A stretch of 64,000 nucleotides of DNA from Xanthobacter flavus (GTDB taxonomy: Bacteria > Pseudomonadota > Alphaproteobacteria > Rhizobiales > Xanthobacteraceae): NCBI RefSeq assembly GCF_017875275.1, contig NZ_JAGGML010000001.1:2997001-3061000 (forward strand), given 5' to 3'. This document shows, in pieces, positions 49,956-59,249 of this stretch (its first letter is position 1; every line of letters starts with the position of its first letter). The notes below the pieces were generated by a model. It made no database searches. It was not told where the DNA came from and saw nothing but the letters and a program-made list of their open reading frames with translations. Both the position numbers and the translations under genes were made by a program.

Positions 49956-50085
49956 GGCTGGACGGGCTTTGGCGGTAGCTATCTGCCGCCTCGCTGCCAT
50001 TCGGCACGCGGCGGTTGAAAATCCGTGCAACCTCGGGGAATCTCGGTCTTGAGCGCCGCCGTGCGCCGTCCCGAGGATCGCCGCA

Positions 50086-50445
50086 ATGACCCCTCCCACC
50101 CGCCGCCTGTTCTCCCTGTCGCTGGTTGCCGGCAGCCTTCTGGCTCTCGCCGGATCGGCCTCGGCGGCGGAGACGACGCCGCTGTTCAAGATCGTCACGG
50201 TGAAGGACGAGATCGTCGTCGGCCTCTCGCCGCAGGACGCGGCGGCGATCGGCGGCAGCGATGTCACCGCCATCGGCCGGGCACTCAAGGCGAAGGGCGA
50301 GGTGACGCTCTGGCGCTACGCCGTGCGCAAGGGCGCCGACGGGGCGCTGGAGCAGGCGCCGGTGGCGCGCGTGAGCATCCTCAGCAACGACAGCCTGCGG
50401 GTCGAGCCCTACTCGACGCCGCTGAAGATCATCGCCCCGCAATGA
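50086..50445 (+). CDS. Secreted hypothetical protein
   Basis: The 119-residue protein has a signal peptide ('LSLVAGSLLALAGSASA') and a mature domain of about 90 residues of beta-rich character ('LFKIVTVKDEIVVGLSPQDAAAIGG'). It overlaps the following SH3-like gene by 4 bp (ATGA), so the two should be cotranscribed and perhaps interact in the periplasm. The family is not recognised. It starts 130 bp after ftsY. Confidence 0.75.
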   Translation: MTPPTRRLFSLSLVAGSLLALAGSASAAETTPLFKIVTVKDEIVVGLSPQDAAAIGGSDVTAIGRALKAKGEVTLWRYAVRKGADGALEQAPVARVSILSNDSLRVEPYSTPLKIIAPQ

Positions 50446-51365
50446 GGCGCCTCGCCGCCCTCACCCTCGTTGTGCTTTTGCTGGCGGCCGAGGCGCGCGC
50501 GGAAGACCCGGCGTGGCTTGCCGCCGCCACGGCGCAACTGCCGAAGACGCTGGTCGCCGGCCGCGTGCTGCGCACGGGCGAACTCGGGCAGACGGCGCTG
50601 ATCGCCGTCTTTCCCGCCGGGGCGGATGATCCGAGGACGCCGGGCAGCGCCTTCACGTCCGGGCAGGTACTGGAGGTGACGCTGGCGCCGGAGGGCGATG
50701 CCCGCCGCGTCGTCTCCGCCGTAGTGCGCCCCCGCACGGCGCAGGATCCGGCGGGGGATGACCCGTTCGCCGAGGATCAGGCGGAAATTCTCGCAAGCCT
50801 CGCGAAGCAAAAGCCGGAGCCGGGTGTGGAGCCTTGCCGGCTCAGGGCGTGGTCCATGGACACGAGCCGCAAGGGCCTGCCCGTGCGCGCCGCGCCTTCG
50901 GCGACGGCGAAGGTGGTGGGCACCCTCGCTCCACCGCGCCACACACCCGAGTCCGGGCAGGGCGAGGACGACAGCTGGCACGTGGAGTTCGAGATCACCG
51001 GCTACAAGGACGGCTGGTTCCGCATCCGCAATGCCAGCCCGCCCGGCGCGCCCTATGACGATCCGCCGCCCCGCTCCTACCCCAAGACCTACAGGGGCGC
51101 GGGCTGGATTCCGGCGGACAAGGCCGGCGGCGCCTATGCCAACACGCAGATGCCGGTGATGCGCCTGCATCAGGCGCCCAACGTCGATGCCCGGGACATC
51201 CCGCCCGGCGATGATGCGGCCGATCCCTCCGGCAATCTGCCCATCGACGGGACGCTGGAGCGCCTTTACGCCTGCTCCGCCAATTGGGCGCTGACGAAGA
51301 GCCGGGATGGCAAGCGCGGCTGGTGGCGCGGCATCTGCTCCAATCAGGTCACGAACTGCAGCTGA
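50442..51365 (+). CDS. Secreted protein with SH3-like domain
   Basis: The 307-residue protein has a signal peptide ('LAALTLVVLLLAAEARA'). The middle region contains a bacterial SH3-like segment ('KGLPVRAAPSATAKVVGTL' near 145, 'DGWFRIRNASPP', 'GAGWIPADKAG') and the C-terminus has a Cys pair ('ICSNQVTNC'). SH3-like domains often bind murein. The start ATGA overlaps the preceding secreted protein gene. It converges on the methyltransferase gene (3 bp). Confidence 0.8.
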   Translation: MRRLAALTLVVLLLAAEARAEDPAWLAAATAQLPKTLVAGRVLRTGELGQTALIAVFPAGADDPRTPGSAFTSGQVLEVTLAPEGDARRVVSAVVRPRTAQDPAGDDPFAEDQAEILASLAKQKPEPGVEPCRLRAWSMDTSRKGLPVRAAPSATAKVVGTLAPPRHTPESGQGEDDSWHVEFEITGYKDGWFRIRNASPPGAPYDDPPPRSYPKTYRGAGWIPADKAGGAYANTQMPVMRLHQAPNVDARDIPPGDDAADPSGNLPIDGTLERLYACSANWALTKSRDGKRGWWRGICSNQVTNCS

Positions 51366-51368
51366 GTT

Positions 51369-52235
51369 TCAGCCGCGCGGCACCGCCAGCAGGTCCACAT
51401 GGCCGATGACGCAGGTGTGCGCCATCGCCCGCGCCTGATGCCAGTCGGCGGCGACCTCGGCCGGCACGCGGCCACTGTCCACCGCCGCCTGCGCCGTGCC
51501 CTTGGCGAGCTCGACGATCAGCTGCCGGTCTCCGGCATCGAGCCGCCACGGGCTGTCCGCCGTCTCGACGGCGTAGCCGGCCGCCGCCAGCGCCGCGCCC
51601 AGGATCGCGCCGGCCTCCGCCCCGGCGGCGGGGCCGAAGCCCTTGTCTGTGCCCTGATGGATGCGGAACGCGTTCGCGATGGCGTCGTCCGCCGGATGCG
51701 GCGGAGACCACACGTCCTTTCCGTCGCAGGTCAGCGCCGCATGGAGCATCGCGCCGCTGCCAGTGAAGGCTGCCGCGAAGCGGCGGCACCAGTCCGCCGA
51801 AACGAGGTCGTAGAAGGCCGAGGCGGTCACGAGATGGGGCCGGAAGGCGAGCGGCGCGGCCGGATCGGCGGCGATGTCGCGCAGGGCGAATTCCACCGTC
51901 ACCTCTTTGCCCGCGAGATCGAGCACCAGCGTTGCGCCATCCTCCCGCCAGCCGTCCGCGAAGGCGCGGAAGGCGGCGCGGGCGGCCTCGGCCAATGCGT
52001 CGTCGTGATCCACCAGCACCCAGTGCTGGCGCGGACCGAGCTTCGGCGCGAGCGCCCGCAGATTGGAGCCGGAGCCGGCGCCGAGATCGACGATGCGCTG
52101 CTCGGCGAAGGACGACAGTCGGTCGGCCAGCTTCGCCTCGATCGCCGCCGAGCGGGCGGCATGGTCGGCGACCTCGCGCAGGGCGAGCCAGTCGGCGGAG
52201 AAGGTGGCGGCGGGGAGGGGCGCAAGCTCGGTCAT
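51369..52235 (-). CDS. Class I SAM methyltransferase of the PTPS cluster
   Basis: The 288-residue protein has motif I 'IVDLGAGSGSNLRALAP' near 50, an acidic loop 'WVLVDHDDALAEAA', and a conserved 'HPADDAIANAFRIHQGTDKGFGP' (two parts) in the second half. It is a small-molecule-type methyltransferase with no protein- or RNA-binding extension. The start overlaps the glycosyltransferase gene (ATGA). It is last in the operon dehydrogenase-PTPS-glycosyltransferase-methyltransferase. The acceptor is unknown; a pterin or its glycoside is an inference. Confidence 0.83.
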   Translation of the reverse strand: MTELAPLPAATFSADWLALREVADHAARSAAIEAKLADRLSSFAEQRIVDLGAGSGSNLRALAPKLGPRQHWVLVDHDDALAEAARAAFRAFADGWREDGATLVLDLAGKEVTVEFALRDIAADPAAPLAFRPHLVTASAFYDLVSADWCRRFAAAFTGSGAMLHAALTCDGKDVWSPPHPADDAIANAFRIHQGTDKGFGPAAGAEAGAILGAALAAAGYAVETADSPWRLDAGDRQLIVELAKGTAQAAVDSGRVPAEVAADWHQARAMAHTCVIGHVDLLAVPRG

Positions 52236-53290
52236 CGGTGGGCGACCTCCATCAGCACCCGGCCGATGACAGCTGCGGTATCGGACCAGTCGGGCAGGGC
52301 AGTTCCGGCGGCGAAGGCGGCATCGGCCATTTTCTGCCGCCACGCGGGATCGGTGAGAAGGGCACGGAGCGCGCCGGCGAGGGCATCCGCATCGCCGGGC
52401 GGCACCTTGAGGCCGGCCCCGTCCGGGACCGTCTCGCCCGCCGCGCCGCCAGTGGTGCAGATCACGGGCAGGCCGCGCCGCAGCGCCTCGGCCAGCACCA
52501 TGCCGTAGCCCTCATAAAAGGAGGGATGGACGAAGATGTCGGCGGTGGCATAGGCCGCATCCAGCGCCGCCGCATCGAGCGCGCCCGCGAGCTGGATGCG
52601 AGAGCCGAAGCCGGCCGCGCGCGCGGCGATCGCGAGGGCCGTCTCAGGCTCGAACTCCGGGCTGCCGACGATGGTCAGCGTCCAGTCGAGATCGGCGAGC
52701 TGGTCGAGGGCGTCGAGCAGCACGCCATAGCCCTTGCGGGGCGTCAGCGATCCCACCGCGATGAGGCGCGGCGGATCGCCGTCCGCCGGCACGCGGTCGG
52801 CCGGGGCGGTGCCGGGCAGCGCAAGGGTGACCTTCTGCGGCGGCACGCCATAGCGCTCCACCAGCATCCGCCGCGTTTCGGGACTGACGGCGATGACGGC
52901 GGATGCGGCCGCGAGCGCGCCTGCCTCGCTCTCCAGCAGGCGGGCGGCCACGTCTTCGGAAAGGCCGGTTTCCAGCGCGAGGGGGTGGTGCACCAGCCCG
53001 ACCAAAGGCCGGCCGATCCGCCGCAATCCCTCCTCCGGCAAGGCGCCGAGGGCGAGGCCATCGGCCAGCAGCACGGTTCCGGCCGGCGTCGCGGCGAGGG
53101 CGGCCAGCGCCGCCTCAATCTCGCCCTGCGAGGGACAGGGGAAGCCGCCCTTCAGCGAGAGAGCCATCGCCGCGAAGCCCTGCGCCTTCAGGCCGGCGAG
53201 GATGCGCCGGTCATAGGCATAGCCGCCGCTGGGCGTATTAATGTCGCCGGGATGGACCAGCGCCACCGCCGGCCGCGCGGAACCGCTCAC
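52232..53290 (-). CDS. GT4-family glycosyltransferase of the PTPS cluster
   Basis: The 352-residue protein is a two-domain GT-B enzyme: N-terminal 'VALVHPGDINTPSGGYAYDRRIL', the hinge sequence 'IAVGSLTPRKGYGVLLDALDQ' near 175, and 'FVHPSFYEGYGMVLAEALRRGLPVI' (two parts) with the EX7E pair that binds the nucleotide sugar. No membrane helix is seen, so it may act on a soluble acceptor. It overlaps both neighbours by 4 bp (ATGA), which ties it closely to the PTPS-like gene. Confidence 0.88.
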   Translation of the reverse strand: MSGSARPAVALVHPGDINTPSGGYAYDRRILAGLKAQGFAAMALSLKGGFPCPSQGEIEAALAALAATPAGTVLLADGLALGALPEEGLRRIGRPLVGLVHHPLALETGLSEDVAARLLESEAGALAAASAVIAVSPETRRMLVERYGVPPQKVTLALPGTAPADRVPADGDPPRLIAVGSLTPRKGYGVLLDALDQLADLDWTLTIVGSPEFEPETALAIAARAAGFGSRIQLAGALDAAALDAAYATADIFVHPSFYEGYGMVLAEALRRGLPVICTTGGAAGETVPDGAGLKVPPGDADALAGALRALLTDPAWRQKMADAAFAAGTALPDWSDTAAVIGRVLMEVAHR

Positions 53291-53697
53291 GCTGCGGGGC
53301 CGATGTCGGCCTCGTACCAGGCGCGGGCGACGTGGGATTCGTGCAGCGACACGCGGATGCGCACGATGCCGTCGCCCCCGGCGCCGAGTTCGCCGGAGCG
53401 GGCGGCGGCGGCCATGTGGTCGAACACGTGGCGGGCCAGCACCTCGGTGGTGGTGTTGCGGCCGGCGAAGGCGGGCACCTCGTCAAGGTTCTTGTAGTTG
53501 AGCGGGCCGAGCACGCCCTTCAGCGCGTCATGGGCGCGGGCGATGTCCACCACCACGCCCTCCTCGGTCAGGTCCTCGCGATAGAAGGCCACATCCACGA
53601 CGAAGGTCGCCCCGTGCAGCGCCTGCGCCGGGCCGAACAGGTCGCCCCGGAAGGAGTGGGCGATCATGATGTGGTCCCGCACCTCTACCGCGTACAT
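53287..53697 (-). CDS. PTPS/QueD-fold protein with altered metal site
   Basis: The 136-residue T-fold protein belongs to the 6-pyruvoyl-tetrahydropterin synthase family. Its N-terminus 'MIAHSF' keeps H14, but the canonical 'C...HGH' is 'ALHGATF' here: H28 is present, the second His is A30, and no Cys lies in the 20 residues before it. 'GVVVDI' and 'SLHESH' (with Glu) match the rest of the site, and 'NTTTEVLARHVF' replaces the 'PT.EN.A' helix. Zinc may be bound differently, or the enzyme may do a related reaction. It overlaps the glycosyltransferase gene. Confidence 0.82.
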   Translation of the reverse strand: MYAVEVRDHIMIAHSFRGDLFGPAQALHGATFVVDVAFYREDLTEEGVVVDIARAHDALKGVLGPLNYKNLDEVPAFAGRNTTTEVLARHVFDHMAAAARSGELGAGGDGIVRIRVSLHESHVARAWYEADIGPAA

Positions 53698-53727
53698 TGA
53701 ATGTCCTTTCTGTCCCGTGGTCCGGCC

Positions 53728-54738
53728 TCAGCCGTAGCGCACGACGGTGACGATTCCTTCCGCACCGGCGCCGAGGATACGCGGCATCCGGGCCGGCAGA
53801 TCATCGAAGGCGACCTCCTGCGTGATGAGCGCGTCCAGCCGGTCGTCGGCGAGGAGGTCCAGCGCCTTCAGGAGGCGACGGCGGCGGCTCCAGCGCGGGC
53901 GGCGGGCGGGGCTCACCGCGCCCACCTGCGAGGAGAGGATGGCGAGGCGTTTGTGGTGGAAGCCGCCGCCAAGCGCCACGTCCACCGGGCGGTCGCCGTA
54001 CCAGCTCATTTCGATCACCCGGCCTTCGTCGCCGCAGCAGGCGAGGCAGACGTTGAGGCCGGCCGAGGAGCCCGAGGTGTGGAAGACGAGATCGGCATCG
54101 AGATCGGCCGGGCCCGGCTCGGCGGGGAGAAACCTCGCGCCGAAGGTCGCGGCGACGGCGGCGCGGGCGGGATCGGTGTCCACCACCGTCACCTCGGCGC
54201 CGGGCAGCCGGCCGCAGAGATAGGCGACCAGAAGCCCGACGAGCCCTGCGCCCACCACCACGATGCGGTCGCCGGGGCCGGCGCCGCCGTCCCATACCGC
54301 GTTGAGGGCGGTCTCCATGTTGGCCGCGAGCGTCGCGCGCCGCGCCGGCACGGCATCCGGCACCGGCGCCAGCATCTCGCTCAGCGCGACGAACCGTTCC
54401 TGGTGGGGCGCGAGGGAGAAGACGCGGCGGCCGATCAGCTCGGGCGGGCCGGCCTCCACCTCGCCAACGGCGCAATAGCCGTATTTCACCGGAAAGGGGA
54501 ATTCGCCCTCCTGCATCGGGGCGCGCATCCGCGCGCGATGGGCGGGATCGTTGAGGCCCGCCGCCACCAGACGCTCCGTGCCGCGGCTGACCGCGCTGTA
54601 GAGGGTTCGGACCTGCGCGGTGCCTTCGTCCATGGCCGGAAGCACGCCCGGCCGCAGCTCGCAGGCCCCCGGCGCCACGTACCAGAGGGCGCGGGTGAAA
54701 ACGGAGCCGTGGCAAGTTGACGCAGGTTGAACGGCCAT
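53728..54738 (-). CDS. Medium-chain (MDR) dehydrogenase of the PTPS cluster
   Basis: The 336-residue protein is of the MDR/zinc-alcohol-dehydrogenase superfamily: 'TLYSAVSRGTERLVAAGL' near 50, 'KYGYCAVGEVE', and the cofactor site 'RIVVVGAGLVGLLVAYLCGRLPG' near 160 followed by 'VVDTDPARAAVAATFGA'. The usual structural zinc Cys cluster is absent. The layout is like BchC-type dehydrogenases. It is the first gene of the run, 30 bp before the PTPS-like gene, and is divergent from opgH (65 bp). It could reduce or oxidise a pterin side chain; this is an inference. Confidence 0.83.
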   Translation of the reverse strand: MAVQPASTCHGSVFTRALWYVAPGACELRPGVLPAMDEGTAQVRTLYSAVSRGTERLVAAGLNDPAHRARMRAPMQEGEFPFPVKYGYCAVGEVEAGPPELIGRRVFSLAPHQERFVALSEMLAPVPDAVPARRATLAANMETALNAVWDGGAGPGDRIVVVGAGLVGLLVAYLCGRLPGAEVTVVDTDPARAAVAATFGARFLPAEPGPADLDADLVFHTSGSSAGLNVCLACCGDEGRVIEMSWYGDRPVDVALGGGFHHKRLAILSSQVGAVSPARRPRWSRRRRLLKALDLLADDRLDALITQEVAFDDLPARMPRILGAGAEGIVTVVRYG

Positions 54739-54803
54739 GTCTCGGCTCTCGTATAGGCTTGGGGTTTCATCGCCGCGGGCCGCCGGCACCCAGGGAGCTA
54801 TGC

Positions 54804-56654
54804 ATGTCTTCAAGGTCCGGTCCACTGTCCTCGCTTCCGGAAAAGCCCGCGCCCGCCTCGGCCACGCTGACGCCGGCGCTGATCCAGCCGCTCTCAACGC
54901 TTCGGCGGCGCCGTCTGTTCATGCTGGTCGCGAATTTGGCGACGGTGGCCCTCGTCCTCGCCGGGATGGTGGCGCTGGGCGCGCATGACGGTTTCTCTCT
55001 GGTGGATGGCCTCCTGCTGGTCTGCGCGCTCGCCATCACACCGTGGAATGCCATCGGCTTCTGGAATGCGGCTGTGGGTCTCTACCTCCTGCACGGCCGG
55101 CGCAGGGGCATAGAGGCGGCAGCGCCTTTCCTCGCGCCGCCGCTGCCCGAAGGCCCGATCACCTCCCGCACCGCCATCCTCCTGACCGTGCGTAACGAGG
55201 ACCCCGCCCGCGCGCTCAACCGGCTCAAGGCGGTGAAGGCGGACCTCGACCTCACCGGCCATGGCTCCGCCTTCGATTTCCACGTCCTCAGCGACACTTC
55301 GCGGCCCGACATCGCAATCGCCGAGGAAGCGCTGGTGGCGGCGTGGCGGGCGCAGGAGGGCTCTGCCCGCATCTTCTACCGCCGCCGAACGGACAATGCC
55401 GGCTTCAAGGCCGGCAACGTGCGCGCCTTCTGCGTCGACGCGGGCGAGCGTTACGACTTCATGCTGCCGCTCGACGCCGACAGCCTGATGGGCGCGGACA
55501 CCATCCTCTCCATGGTGCGGCTGATGATGGCCTATCCGCGCCTCGGCATCCTGCAGAGCCTCGTGGTGGGCCTGCCCTCGCAGAGCGCGTTCGGCCGCAT
55601 CTTCCAGTTCGGCATGCGCCACGGCATGCGCAGCTACACTTTGGGTGCGAGCTGGTGGGCGGGGGATTGCGGCCCGTTCTGGGGGCACAATGCGGTGATC
55701 CGCGTCGCCCCCTTCCGCGATGCCTGCCACCTGCCCGCGCTGCCCGGCGGCCCGCCCTTCGGCGGACCCGTGCTTTCGCACGATCAGGTGGAAGCGGTGC
55801 TCATGCGCCGCGCCGGATATGAGGTGCGCGTGCTGCCGGTGGAGAGCGAGAGCTATGAAGAGAACCCGCCGGCCGCCACCGATTTCGTCGGGCGCGACCT
55901 GCGCTGGTGCCTCGGCAATCTCCAGTATCTGCGCCTTCTCTCGGTGCCGGGTCTGGCGGCGAGCCTCCAGCCCATGAGCCGCTTCCAGCTGGTCTGGGCC
56001 ATCCTGATGTTCGTGACGGTGCCGGCCCATCCGGCGCTGCTGGCGCTCCTGCCTCTGGCGGCGGCGGAGGCGGGGCCGGCCTATCCGGTCGGCCTCGCGC
56101 TGGCGCTGTATGGGGGCATGATGGCGATGGCGCTCCTGCCCAAGCTCGCCGGCGTCGCGGATGTCCTGCTGACCACGGGCGGCGTCGCCCGCTATGGCGG
56201 CGCGCTGCGCTTTGCGGCGTCGGTCGCCGTGGAGCTGGTGTTCTCCTTCCTGCTCAGCGCCATCACCGCCATGGCGGTGACGCTGGAGATGCTCCGGCTG
56301 CTGCTCGGCCGGGTGCGGGCGTCGTGGGGGAAGAGGGTTATTTGGCGGGCGCAGGCGCGCGATGGCCACGGGGTGGACTTCGCCCATGCGGCGCTGGCCT
56401 TCTGGCCGCAGGCGCTGTTCGGTCTCGCGGTGCTCATCGCGCTCCTGGCGGTGCAGCCGGTGCTGGCGCTGTGGGCGGCGCCGGTTCTGGCGGGCTATGT
56501 GCTCGCCATTCCCTTCACCATGGCCACCGCTGACCCGCGTCTCGGCCAATTGTGCGTGCGTCTCGGCCTGTGCGCGGTGCCGGAGGAGTTCGCGCCGAGC
56601 CGGGTGCAGCTTCTGCTGGTGGGTGAGCGCTTTGAGGCCCGCCGGGCGGCCTGA
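54804..56654 (+). CDS. opgH: Osmoregulated periplasmic glucan glucosyltransferase OpgH
   Basis: The 616-residue membrane GT2 enzyme builds beta-1,2-linked glucan backbones from UDP-glucose. It has two N-terminal helices, a cytoplasmic domain with 'LLTVRNEDPARALNRL', the DxD in 'PLDADSLMGAD' (near 230), 'WWAGDCGPFWGHNAVIR', 'LSHDQVEAVLMRRAGYEVR' (in two parts) and the acceptor motif 'RDLRWCLGNLQYLR', then about five more helices. CAGGGAG precedes the ATG. OpgG, the usual partner, is not in this window. A terminator follows. Confidence 0.93.
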   Translation: MSSRSGPLSSLPEKPAPASATLTPALIQPLSTLRRRRLFMLVANLATVALVLAGMVALGAHDGFSLVDGLLLVCALAITPWNAIGFWNAAVGLYLLHGRRRGIEAAAPFLAPPLPEGPITSRTAILLTVRNEDPARALNRLKAVKADLDLTGHGSAFDFHVLSDTSRPDIAIAEEALVAAWRAQEGSARIFYRRRTDNAGFKAGNVRAFCVDAGERYDFMLPLDADSLMGADTILSMVRLMMAYPRLGILQSLVVGLPSQSAFGRIFQFGMRHGMRSYTLGASWWAGDCGPFWGHNAVIRVAPFRDACHLPALPGGPPFGGPVLSHDQVEAVLMRRAGYEVRVLPVESESYEENPPAATDFVGRDLRWCLGNLQYLRLLSVPGLAASLQPMSRFQLVWAILMFVTVPAHPALLALLPLAAAEAGPAYPVGLALALYGGMMAMALLPKLAGVADVLLTTGGVARYGGALRFAASVAVELVFSFLLSAITAMAVTLEMLRLLLGRVRASWGKRVIWRAQARDGHGVDFAHAALAFWPQALFGLAVLIALLAVQPVLALWAAPVLAGYVLAIPFTMATADPRLGQLCVRLGLCAVPEEFAPSRVQLLLVGERFEARRAA

Positions 56655-56670
56655 ACGGGCGCGCAAAAGA

Positions 56671-56698
56671 AAAGGCCGGGCGCGCGCGCCCGGCCTTT
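56671..56698. terminator. Bidirectional terminator between opgH and the glycine-rich gene
   Basis: AAAGGCCGGGCGC and GCGCCCGGCCTTT form a near-perfect 13-bp stem (56671-56698) with a tiny GC loop, flanked by A-rich and T-rich ends. It can serve both convergent genes. Confidence 0.88.
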
Positions 56699-56720
56699 CG
56701 TTCAAGTGCGATGGATGAGA

Positions 56721-59249
56721 TCAGCGCCGGCCGAAGCCGCCGCCAAATCCGCCACCAAATCCGCGACCGCCGCCACCCCAACCGCCGCCACCGCCGAAGC
56801 GGTCGCCGCCGCCGAAGCCGCCGAAGCCCCGGTCGAAGCCGCCGGAGCCGAAGCTGTCGCCGCGGCCATAGGCATCACCGCCGAAGCCGTCGCCGCCGTA
56901 GCTCGACACCCGCTGATTGCCATAGGAGCGGGCCTGTTCCTCGCGGTCGAGGCTCGATGTGTCGCGGCTGGTGTTCTGCCAGCCGGAGGTGGTGTGCTGG
57001 CTCCAGCTGCCATTGTCGTTGTGCTGGTAGACATTGCCGTCGTGGTCAACCGCCACGTGGCCATTGTCCCACGCCACCGCATTGCCGGTCTTGGCGTTGC
57101 CGGCGACGCCGCGGCTGTCGACGTTCACGTTGCCGTTCTTCTCCGTCACGCCGGTCTGGGAGGCGTGATAGGTGCCCGTGGTGGGATTGGCGCCGGCGGA
57201 TTCACGGCCGGCGGCGGCATTGCCCGTATAGGCGTTGCCCTCCACACCGGCGCGGCTTTCGCCACGCGCGCCGGTGGTGGGGTTGTAGCGGGCGTTCTCC
57301 CGGCCGGCGGCATAATTGCCGGAATAGGGATTGAACGCGGCGCCCGAGCGGCCGGCGAAATTGGTGCCGTTCGCCGTGGTGCCGCGCCAGTCGCGGCCCG
57401 ACCAGTCGGTGCCGTTCCAGGTGGTGCCCCACGCATGGTTCACCGTGGCCGCGCCGCCCCAGCGGCCGTAGAGGTTGGTCTGGTTCAGGTTGGTGTAGCC
57501 CCAGTGGCCGCCCCACGGTCCGTAAGGTCCATAGGGACCATAGGGATGCCAGTACGGCCCCCAATAGGGATACACCGCCGTGCCCCAGCCCCAGCCGGCG
57601 GCGAAGCCGAAGGCGAACCCGGTGTCGAGGCCCAGCGCGAAGCCGGCGCCGACGCCGTAGGTGACGGGGCACGAATACCAGTCCGTGAAGCCCACGTAGC
57701 CCACGCAATTGTAGCCGGTGCCGTAGACCACCGTGCCGCCCGGAGCGACCACGACGCCCATGTAGCCCGGGGTATAGCCCACCACCACGGCCTCCGGCGT
57801 GGCGCCGTAGATGCGCACGTAGGTGACATAGTGGACGGGCGAGGACACCGGGATGGTGTAGATCACGTCCGGCACCGCGTCGGCGACGCGCCAGGGGCCG
57901 GCGGGATCGACCGCCACGAACCACGCGCCGTTGTTCACCGCGTAGAAGCGGTCGGGCGCGAGGCGGATGACCGGCGTCGCGGTGTTCACGGCATAGGCGA
58001 GGGCGGTGCCGGAGATGGGCTCGAACTTCGGCGCGCCCTCATAGGCGACCTTGAGCTGCACATCCCGCTTCACCGTCGCCGTCTGCGGAATGGTCGCGGC
58101 GATGGCCGCTTCCTTGGCCTGCGGCGTGCCCGCCACCGAGACCAGCACGTTGGCCTTGGGATCGTTCGGAGAGATCTTGGAGAAGTCCTTGGGCAGCGCG
58201 TTGCTGGCCACGAAGGCCCACGGCCCCTTCAGGTCCGGCGCCTTGAACCAGCGGCCCGAGATGAGGACATAATAGGAATTGGAGGTGGTCTCCATGAACA
58301 CCGCGTGGTCGGCATTGTTCATGGTGAGCAGGTTGGTGCCCGCCACCGGGAGCATCTGCGGCTGGCCGTCGGTCTGGATCAGCTCGGAGGGCTTGGTGAC
58401 CGCGATGATGGCCGGGGCCGGGTTGATCGGCTTCTTGTCGTTGCTGAGCAGCGGATCGGCCGGGATCTCGGCGATGGCCGCCTTGCCCGCCGCCGCGAGG
58501 GCGTCGGAGACCTGGGGCGTGACGATCCAGGTGCCGCCGAGGTCCGGCGTCTCATACCAGTGGCCGGCGGCCTCCAGGTGATAGGTGCCGGCGTCATCCT
58601 TCAGCAGCAGGGGCTGGGTGTTGATGACCCGCTGGAAGCCGCTCACGCCCTTGATCGGCCGCAGCACCGGCTGGCCGGCGACGGGAACAAGCACGGTCGT
58701 GGTGGTGGCGAACAGGATTTGCGGCGGGGTGTTGTCCACCGGCTGGGCCTGAACCTTGGCCAGTTCCTGGTTCACCGCATAGCTCGCCTGGAGCTGGTCG
58801 AGCGGGATGGTCATGCCATCGGGCGGCAGGCGCGTCTGCAGGGCCGAGCGGATCTCGCTCGCCTTGGCCGGCTCGGTGGGCACCTGCACGTTATCGATGG
58901 TGAAGGTGGCGAAATGGACGAGGCCCGCCGGCTTGTCGATGGCGACGCGGGTCGAGAACTTCACCATGCCGTAGGTGGGCGCGCCGGTCTTGACGCCGAT
59001 GGCGACGGCGGCGCGGCCGGACATGGTGTCGCCGTTCCAGACGTCGATCTGCGGCTGATAGAGCTGGAGCACCTGGTTGTCGGGCAGATCGAAGACGCGC
59101 GGCCAGGTCGGCGGCGCGGTGGGCGTGGCCCCGGGCTGGGCCTGCGCCTGAGGTGTCGACTGGGGTTGCTGGGCGTCGGCCGTCGCGGGCCACAGCATCG
59201 CCGCTGCAACCAGCGCTGCAGCTGAGGCGCCGGTCCAAAGTCGCTTCAT
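56721..59249 (-). CDS. Large secreted protein with glycine-rich tail
   Basis: The 842-residue protein has a signal peptide ('MKRLWTGASAAALVAAAMLWPATADAQ', read in two parts). A conserved first 480 residues contains repeated 'HWYETPDLGGTW'/'RWFKAPDLKGPW' motifs. Next is an aromatic Gly/Tyr/Trp segment ('YPYWGPYWHPYGPYGPYGPW'), then Asn/Gly/Thr-rich 'NPTTG' repeats (640-720), and finally a Gly/Phe/Arg tail ('GGGWGGGGRGFGGGFGGGFGRR'). Related Bradyrhizobium proteins are often labelled carbohydrate-binding; that is not proven. It is probably an outer-surface protein. GGAGGGAGG precedes the ATG. Confidence 0.8.
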   Translation of the reverse strand: MKRLWTGASAAALVAAAMLWPATADAQQPQSTPQAQAQPGATPTAPPTWPRVFDLPDNQVLQLYQPQIDVWNGDTMSGRAAVAIGVKTGAPTYGMVKFSTRVAIDKPAGLVHFATFTIDNVQVPTEPAKASEIRSALQTRLPPDGMTIPLDQLQASYAVNQELAKVQAQPVDNTPPQILFATTTTVLVPVAGQPVLRPIKGVSGFQRVINTQPLLLKDDAGTYHLEAAGHWYETPDLGGTWIVTPQVSDALAAAGKAAIAEIPADPLLSNDKKPINPAPAIIAVTKPSELIQTDGQPQMLPVAGTNLLTMNNADHAVFMETTSNSYYVLISGRWFKAPDLKGPWAFVASNALPKDFSKISPNDPKANVLVSVAGTPQAKEAAIAATIPQTATVKRDVQLKVAYEGAPKFEPISGTALAYAVNTATPVIRLAPDRFYAVNNGAWFVAVDPAGPWRVADAVPDVIYTIPVSSPVHYVTYVRIYGATPEAVVVGYTPGYMGVVVAPGGTVVYGTGYNCVGYVGFTDWYSCPVTYGVGAGFALGLDTGFAFGFAAGWGWGTAVYPYWGPYWHPYGPYGPYGPWGGHWGYTNLNQTNLYGRWGGAATVNHAWGTTWNGTDWSGRDWRGTTANGTNFAGRSGAAFNPYSGNYAAGRENARYNPTTGARGESRAGVEGNAYTGNAAAGRESAGANPTTGTYHASQTGVTEKNGNVNVDSRGVAGNAKTGNAVAWDNGHVAVDHDGNVYQHNDNGSWSQHTTSGWQNTSRDTSSLDREEQARSYGNQRVSSYGGDGFGGDAYGRGDSFGSGGFDRGFGGFGGGDRFGGGGGWGGGGRGFGGGFGGGFGRR

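Follow-up and report, generated by a model that had tools for sequence, protein, structure and literature searches.

What can be made by a dehydrogenase, a pterin-type protein, a glycosyltransferase and a methyltransferase whose genes lie in one run? The question arises in Xanthobacter flavus, where four open reading frames for an MDR-family dehydrogenase, a PTPS-fold protein, a GT4 glycosyltransferase and a methyltransferase occupy the minus strand at 51369-54738 of the window, that is, the whole stretch of 64,000 nucleotides analysed here (positions 2997001-3061000 of a 5.35-Mb single-contig genome, G000:C1). A first-pass annotation of the window had described this run, and all four frames are indeed open. 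It had read the run as a dehydrogenase-pterin-glycosylation-methylation path. We find that the quartet is conserved in two phyla and is linked in many genomes to genes that open GTP. We judge the chances evenly divided on whether it is the central part of a pathway of its own, fed by GTP that GTP cyclohydrolase II (GCHII) has opened.

Loci for comparison were retrieved through the PTPS-fold protein (here called PTPS-IV), so that gene-order counts describe carriers of this gene, and the quartet was located in them by tblastn with the four window proteins. The actinomycete set comprises the best 80 of at least 591 confirmed stretches, all actinomycete because SCO6650, a relative of solved structure, led the query. 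The proteobacterial set (n = 41) comprises the window and 40 loci hand-picked from 94 positives, mostly one or two per genus. All four genes were found in 78/80 actinomycete loci, with identical order and strand in 77/80; the exceptions are a 7.4-kb contig with no methyltransferase match (L130), a locus with no glycosyltransferase match (L135) and one in which the MDR gene lies 3.7 kb downstream on the opposite strand (L132). All four genes stand in order on the same strand in 37 of the 41 proteobacterial loci, window included. The MDR gene lies elsewhere in the genome in three of the remaining four (L151, L153 and L163, from G079, G100 and G037), and the fourth (L160, from G122) has no methyltransferase match and carries the glycosyltransferase gene before the MDR gene. 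The concern that the four genes might not be conserved together in other genomes can therefore be put aside, and their retention in two phyla argues that the unit is more than chance. Two unusual arrangements were seen in a single genus. In G105 a UbiE-type methyltransferase gene (L192:4284-5153; PF08241 2.2e-22, PF01209 8.8e-13) precedes the GT4 gene, the usual methyltransferase having no match nearby, and is possibly a non-homologous replacement. In the one-contig genome G122 the MDR gene (G122:C1:3776803-3777733) is split over two overlapping reading frames, and its 5' piece contains a TAA; it may be broken or frameshifted, with PTPS-IV still open.

Presence was also scored genome by genome. 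PTPS-IV at E <1e-40 was found in 79/149 genomes of the window's family (seven genomes with only weak QueD-like matches were dropped) and in 19/299 genomes drawn from the phylum of the window genome; at E <1e-29 it was found in 10/396 genomes drawn from the actinomycete phylum, centre genome included. Within the family, an MDR match of at least 240 bits accompanied PTPS-IV in 79/79 carriers versus 1/70 non-carriers (G117, fragmented); carriers within one family share ancestry, and the Fisher p-values for this co-occurrence and for that of OpgH2 described below overstate independence. Stronger evidence comes from the shared gene order in two phyla and from relocated genes. In G053, G079, G100 and G133, MDR and PTPS-IV co-occur though they lie on different contigs, and in the four genomes so arranged OpgH2 lies beside the MDR gene (L186-L189). 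In G037, OpgH2 is on a contig other than those of MDR and PTPS-IV.

The PTPS-IV protein, P0002, matches PF01242 at 3.3e-22 (79.2 bits against a cut-off of 22.4), and among proteins of solved structure its sequence is closest to SCO6650 (PDB 3d7j, E 1e-43 over 130 residues), close relatives of which, up to 98% identical, are found within the same quartet in other Streptomyces. Its FGPAQ signature spans residues 21-25, and F21, G22, P23, A24 and Q25 are invariant in a 22-sequence alignment. Active-site positions were aligned by BLASTP with one QueD-type protein and by profile with nine; a MAFFT alignment with one QueD put the first zinc His wrongly and was discarded in favour of these. We take H14 and H28 to be zinc His, Ala30 to stand in place of the third zinc His, Ala24 in place of the catalytic Cys and N67/Y68 in place of the Asp-His pair, and E120 to be the pterin-anchoring Glu. 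In all 121 members H14 and H28 are kept, the third zinc His is Ala30 and the catalytic Cys is Ala24. The relay His position holds Tyr68 in 115 members, Met in 4, Leu in 1, Phe in 1 and His in none, and the relay Asp position holds Asp in 4/121. Having lost the Cys, one zinc His and, in nearly all members, the relay pair, PTPS-IV cannot work as PTPS or QueD does. At the same time E120 and E85 are each kept in 121/121 members, and S15, Q25, D51, N70 and D72 are, like H14 and H28, invariant, which speaks for an enzyme-like site; judged by its residues, PTPS-IV resembles an enzyme whose pocket is of the pterin type. The grouping with a non-pterin T-fold subfamily that the first-pass annotation had named as a refutation is half borne out, in that the subfamily lacks the catalytic residues yet keeps the pterin-anchoring Glu without exception. 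The structure study of SCO6650 is said to have found no zinc bound, no triad and no PTPS activity, and to have left the function unassigned.

These losses bear on the conventional fates of a PF01242 protein. Membership of that family might suggest that PTPS-IV backs up the supply of folate, biopterin or queuosine pterins, which we regard as scarcely credible: the catalytic Cys and the third zinc His are absent throughout, and the window genome has its own FolE (G000:C1:592250) and, next to a QueE-like gene at 3651722, a separate QueD. P0002 was likewise rejected as the queuosine QueD itself, as it has neither the QueD residues nor que linkage.

The first-pass annotation had suggested looking for a linked GTP cyclohydrolase. 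Conserved neighbours, found by matching all reading frames between loci and identified on examples by Pfam, show GTP-opening genes linked to the quartet in many genomes; the enzyme is GCHII (PF00925), not GTP cyclohydrolase I (GCHI), and its gene is not linked to the quartet in the window genome. Among the 80 actinomycete loci, GCHII occurs in 72, a creatininase-family protein in 72, a CDP-alcohol phosphatidyltransferase in 80 and an LPG_synthase_TM protein in 76, and 72/80 have all eight genes within at most 10 kb either side; the other eight stretches are 5.9-12.8 kb (L094, L109, L125 and L130), 16 kb (L123) or full length (L126, L135 and L140). The 41 proteobacterial loci have RibD_C in 32, GCHII in 20 and cytochrome b561 in 20. 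In the window no GCHII, RibD_C, cytochrome b561, creatininase or actinomycete-type membrane gene was found within 10 kb of the quartet. The window genome instead groups a Tyr-type GCHII with a divergent standalone RibD_C and a b561-like gene in a single block at ~2.266 Mb, with the GCHII ~0.78 Mb from the quartet; in L148 these three genes come after the quartet. Besides this GCHII, PF00925 matches one other protein of the genome, which is RibBA-like (L004:1486-2793, minus strand; G000:C1 ~4.910 Mb); the Cys that we take to be zinc ligands seem to be missing from its GCHII half. The GCHII at 2.266 Mb is thus the only apparently active one of its genome, and it probably serves riboflavin too.

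The residue at one position of the locus GCHIIs distinguishes the two phyla. Spoonamore (2006) reportedly found that SCO6655, presumably a neighbour of SCO6650 by its gene number, makes FAPy because Met replaces a Tyr. This switch position holds Met in 61, His in 10 and Gln in 1 of the 72 actinomycete cluster GCHIIs, and a creatininase-family neighbour is present in all 72 of these loci; in 20/20 proteobacterial loci with GCHII the residue is Tyr. The window genome has no non-Tyr, cluster-linked GCHII of the SCO6655 type; its GCHII carries Tyr and lies away from the quartet. As a within-genome control, 11 of 12 chosen actinomycete genomes were searched and gave 29 GCHII matches. The cluster GCHIIs, told by position, were non-Tyr in 11/11 (M 5, H 5, Q 1), and the others had Tyr in 17/17 with the motif; L222 lacks the motif, and four pattern hits in other reading frames were not counted. 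His- and Gln-type enzymes may by analogy also make FAPy. The creatininase-family protein BrbF converts FAPy to 2,5-diamino-6-ribosylamino-4(3H)-pyrimidinone 5'-phosphate (DARoPP) in Sinorhizobium, as does a Brucella homologue; these BrbF/ArfB formamidases are of the same family as the actinomycete neighbours, with the difference that BrbF serves riboflavin (PMC9478397). Both phyla are therefore predicted to reach DARoPP, through a non-Tyr GCHII plus creatininase in actinomycetes and through a Tyr GCHII in Proteobacteria, and DARoPP is the most likely entry compound.

If DARoPP is the entry compound, its sugar might be reduced before PTPS-IV acts. An ArfC-like RibD_C would then convert DARoPP to the ribitylamine, and PTPS-IV, MDR, glycosyltransferase and methyltransferase would modify a ribityl pyrimidine or an 8-ribityl pterin, giving a flavin-like product and not an ordinary 6-substituted pterin. 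We think this route unlikely, though a real contender. RibD_C lies within 32/41 proteobacterial loci and in the family accompanies 59/79 carriers versus 3/70 other genomes (E <1e-37, plus G030, in which it is split in two pieces), which favours a ribityl compound as PTPS-IV substrate; it is missing from the other 20 of the 79 carriers and exceeds 100 bits in only 10/80 actinomycete loci (13 with any match), which favours a ribosyl compound. The nearest solved relative of RibD_C, 6p8c (E 3.4e-27), bears the name of DARoPP reductase and is followed by 2azn (E 1.3e-25), and 2o7p, a RibD from the riboflavin pathway, comes not far behind (E 1.4e-21). Both GCHII and RibD_C are genes of the riboflavin type, and a printed remark ties PTPS-IV to archaeal F420 synthesis, citing unpublished work (PMC5041015, in the part available to us). 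Supply of riboflavin or coenzyme F420 is nevertheless very unlikely: PTPS-IV is absent from 70/149 family genomes, the window genome has its own RibD at 5263396, and it gave no CofD match on its one contig, versus matches in 10/14 control genomes. The F420, folate, queuosine and biopterin readings were all set aside on the missing CofD, the genome's own FolE, the separate QueD and the lost residues.

The pathway from GTP would also involve the membrane. The plus-strand neighbour of the quartet has the GT2-type domain of the OpgH glucan synthase (PF13632, 4.3e-14), and its proximity had been put down as perhaps chance. We do not find it so. A distinct subfamily, which we call OpgH2, was present in 75/79 quartet carriers versus 2/70 other family genomes (at least 389 bits, plus a partial match in G099); the carriers lacking it are G004, G015, G105 and G122, and the non-carriers having it are G048 and G117. 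Ordinary OpgH proteins score 250-324 bits, and in G093 the match is broken into weaker pieces. The window protein is at least 44% identical to quartet-associated full-length members and 35-41% identical to the ordinary OpgH set, so that OpgH2 shares the GT2 type with the OpgH/MdoH glucan glucosyltransferase and forms a subfamily apart from it. The window genome has a second, ordinary opgH at G000:C1:4081162-4082808, 39% identical to OpgH2. OpgH2 adjoins the quartet in 28/41 proteobacterial loci; a count of 30/41 was rejected as it included matches of ~200 bits lying ~9 kb away in L182 and L183. Among the 13 loci without adjacent OpgH2, seven have the CDP-alcohol phosphatidyltransferase and LPG_synthase_TM genes and six have neither, and no proteobacterial locus (n = 41) has both modules. 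The two modules thus look like alternatives, and a step at the membrane probably belongs to the system. In L174:5939-8397, from a genome of the same taxonomic order as the window, the LPG_synthase_TM and CDP-alcohol phosphatidyltransferase genes stand in place of OpgH2. Just downstream of OpgH2, L158 carries an FkbM-domain methyltransferase gene (PF05050 3.7e-17; oriented -3644..-2901) with relatives in 17 other proteobacterial loci; none was seen in the window, where OpgH2 is followed by a long frame on the opposite strand.

Envelope-type genes of this kind raise the alternative of a surface glycan or glycolipid locus, in which the PTPS-fold protein would be a repurposed binder and GCHII and RibD_C would be neighbours by history. 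OpgH2, GT4, the FkbM methyltransferase, the CDP-alcohol phosphatidyltransferase and the LPG_synthase_TM protein would all suit it, as would the close tracking of the quartet by OpgH2. The altered-switch GCHII with creatininase in 72/80 actinomycete loci points instead to a GTP-derived substrate, and the invariant active-site residues of PTPS-IV do not suit a mere binder; we regard a glycan locus as rather improbable.

As to the pathway from GTP, the comparisons show conservation, linkage and residue changes, and we infer each reaction of the quartet and membrane module. In Proteobacteria, the window genome included, a Tyr-type GCHII would make DARoPP directly, and actinomycetes would obtain it via FAPy and a creatininase-family formamidase. 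PTPS-IV would then take DARoPP, or a pterin derived from it, as its substrate; our first choice for its role is to rearrange the compound and close the ring, the later half of the GCHI reaction. The MDR enzyme would alter the redox state of a side chain, with glycosylation by GT4 and methylation by the methyltransferase. The membrane module would carry out a further step at the membrane; in most carriers of the window's family this module is OpgH2, and actinomycetes and proteobacteria of another class have the CDP-alcohol phosphatidyltransferase with the LPG_synthase_TM protein instead. Given the conserved quartet and the GTP-opening genes, we regard as plausible a product that is a pterin, or a related pyrimidine, carrying a sugar and a methyl group; this much of the first-pass reading survives, with GCHII as the source and a membrane module added. 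A fuller version, which we offer tentatively and think unlikely, is a GCHI-independent pterin route in which the GCHI reaction is split between GCHII (formamidase optional) and PTPS-IV (rearrangement and ring closure only). The pterin would then be redox-changed, glycosylated, methylated and finished by OpgH2 or by the CDP-alcohol transferase with a flippase-like protein. The result would be a pterin glycoconjugate, exported or anchored in the membrane, in two phyla.

Several observations weigh against a pathway from GTP. GCHII lies within the locus in only 20/41 proteobacterial loci, and in Proteobacteria it may serve nothing but riboflavin; the single apparently active copy of the window genome is unlinked. 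The Tyr/creatininase contrast is mainly one between two phyla and so represents few independent events. Four proteobacterial Tyr-GCHII loci also have a creatininase-family neighbour, which breaks the rule, considered and dropped, that creatininase occurs only with non-Tyr GCHII. The standalone RibD_C, expected if ribose is reduced first, is absent from 20/79 carriers. The GT4 and methyltransferase families say nothing about acceptors, and we know of no assay behind FAPy production by His- or Gln-type GCHII. Finally, an S. coelicolor expression table lists SCO6655 as anticorrelated with predicted flux (PMC2853524, in the portion available); SCO2687, another GCHII, is listed too, and the table therefore does not set SCO6655 apart.

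The features of the locus are collected in Table 1. Both junctions among the last three genes are 4-bp overlaps, as first described; only that between glycosyltransferase and methyltransferase is ATGA, the one between PTPS-IV and glycosyltransferase being GTGA, and 30 bp separate the end of the MDR gene from the PTPS-IV start downstream. P0003 matches PF00534 at 5.4e-30 and has GT4-type domains only. P0001 falls below the curated cut-off of PF00107 (28.4 against 31.8 bits) and below that of TIGR01202 bchC (E 2.9e-11), and SRGTE stands where we would expect the catalytic zinc-site motif. P0004 falls below the cut-off of PF13649 (21.7 against 27 bits). Sequence searches of the PDB returned general relatives only for the MDR and glycosyltransferase proteins and, at E 1 or below, none for the methyltransferase. 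An Rfam scan of 50000-57000 found no RNA family.

Table 1. Coordinates of the quartet and its divergent neighbour in the window
Feature	Position	Strand	Remark
MDR-family dehydrogenase (P0001), first operon gene, 336 aa	53728..54738	-	weakly BchC-like
PTPS-IV protein (P0002), T-fold family PF01242, FGPAQ signature, 136 aa	53287..53697	-	58% identity to SCO6650
GT4-type glycosyltransferase (P0003), 352 aa, GTG start	52232..53290	-	PF00534
Class I SAM methyltransferase (P0004), 288 aa	51369..52235	-	ATGA overlap with glycosyltransferase gene
Divergent intergenic region between MDR and GT2 starts, 65 bp	54739..54803	.	inferred shared promoter region
OpgH-like GT2 membrane-type glycosyltransferase, quartet-associated subfamily (OpgH2, our name)	54804..56654	+	

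The statement that no such pathway is known was nearly right, since a search of open-licence literature gave no description of the MDR/PTPS/GT4/methyltransferase quartet; the structure of SCO6650 has, however, been solved, and the linkage of PTPS-IV with GCHII and RibD_C is in print. The subfamily was named PTPS-IV with the signature FGPAQ, and PF00925 (there called FolE2) and PF01872 were placed in its neighbourhood, the same signature and the same GCHII and RibD_C neighbours as found here (PMC5445326, as far as available). In the passages on PTPS-IV available from that paper and from PMC5041015, the MDR, GT4, methyltransferase, OpgH2, formamidase and switch residue go unmentioned. The pteridine glycosyltransferases of cyanobacteria and Chlorobium (CtPGT) resemble our proposal in that a glycosyltransferase would act on a pterin; they act on biopterin-type pterins, and CtPGT and P0003 are compared here by description only (PMC5683033).

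The proposed pathway would be shared by Actinomycetota and Pseudomonadota with its gene order unchanged, and would be present in 79 of the 149 sampled genomes of one family. To our knowledge only the structure of SCO6650 is known, and no function; the protein now gains a testable role. The pathway would also explain the loss of the switch Tyr in the cluster GCHIIs. A 2026 review of bacterial pterins has most biological pterins made through FolE, and its main text, in the part available, does not contain the terms 'GTP cyclohydrolase II' or 'PTPS' (PMC13259868). If the product is indeed a pterin, the quartet and its GCHII would represent a second way to make pterins from GTP.

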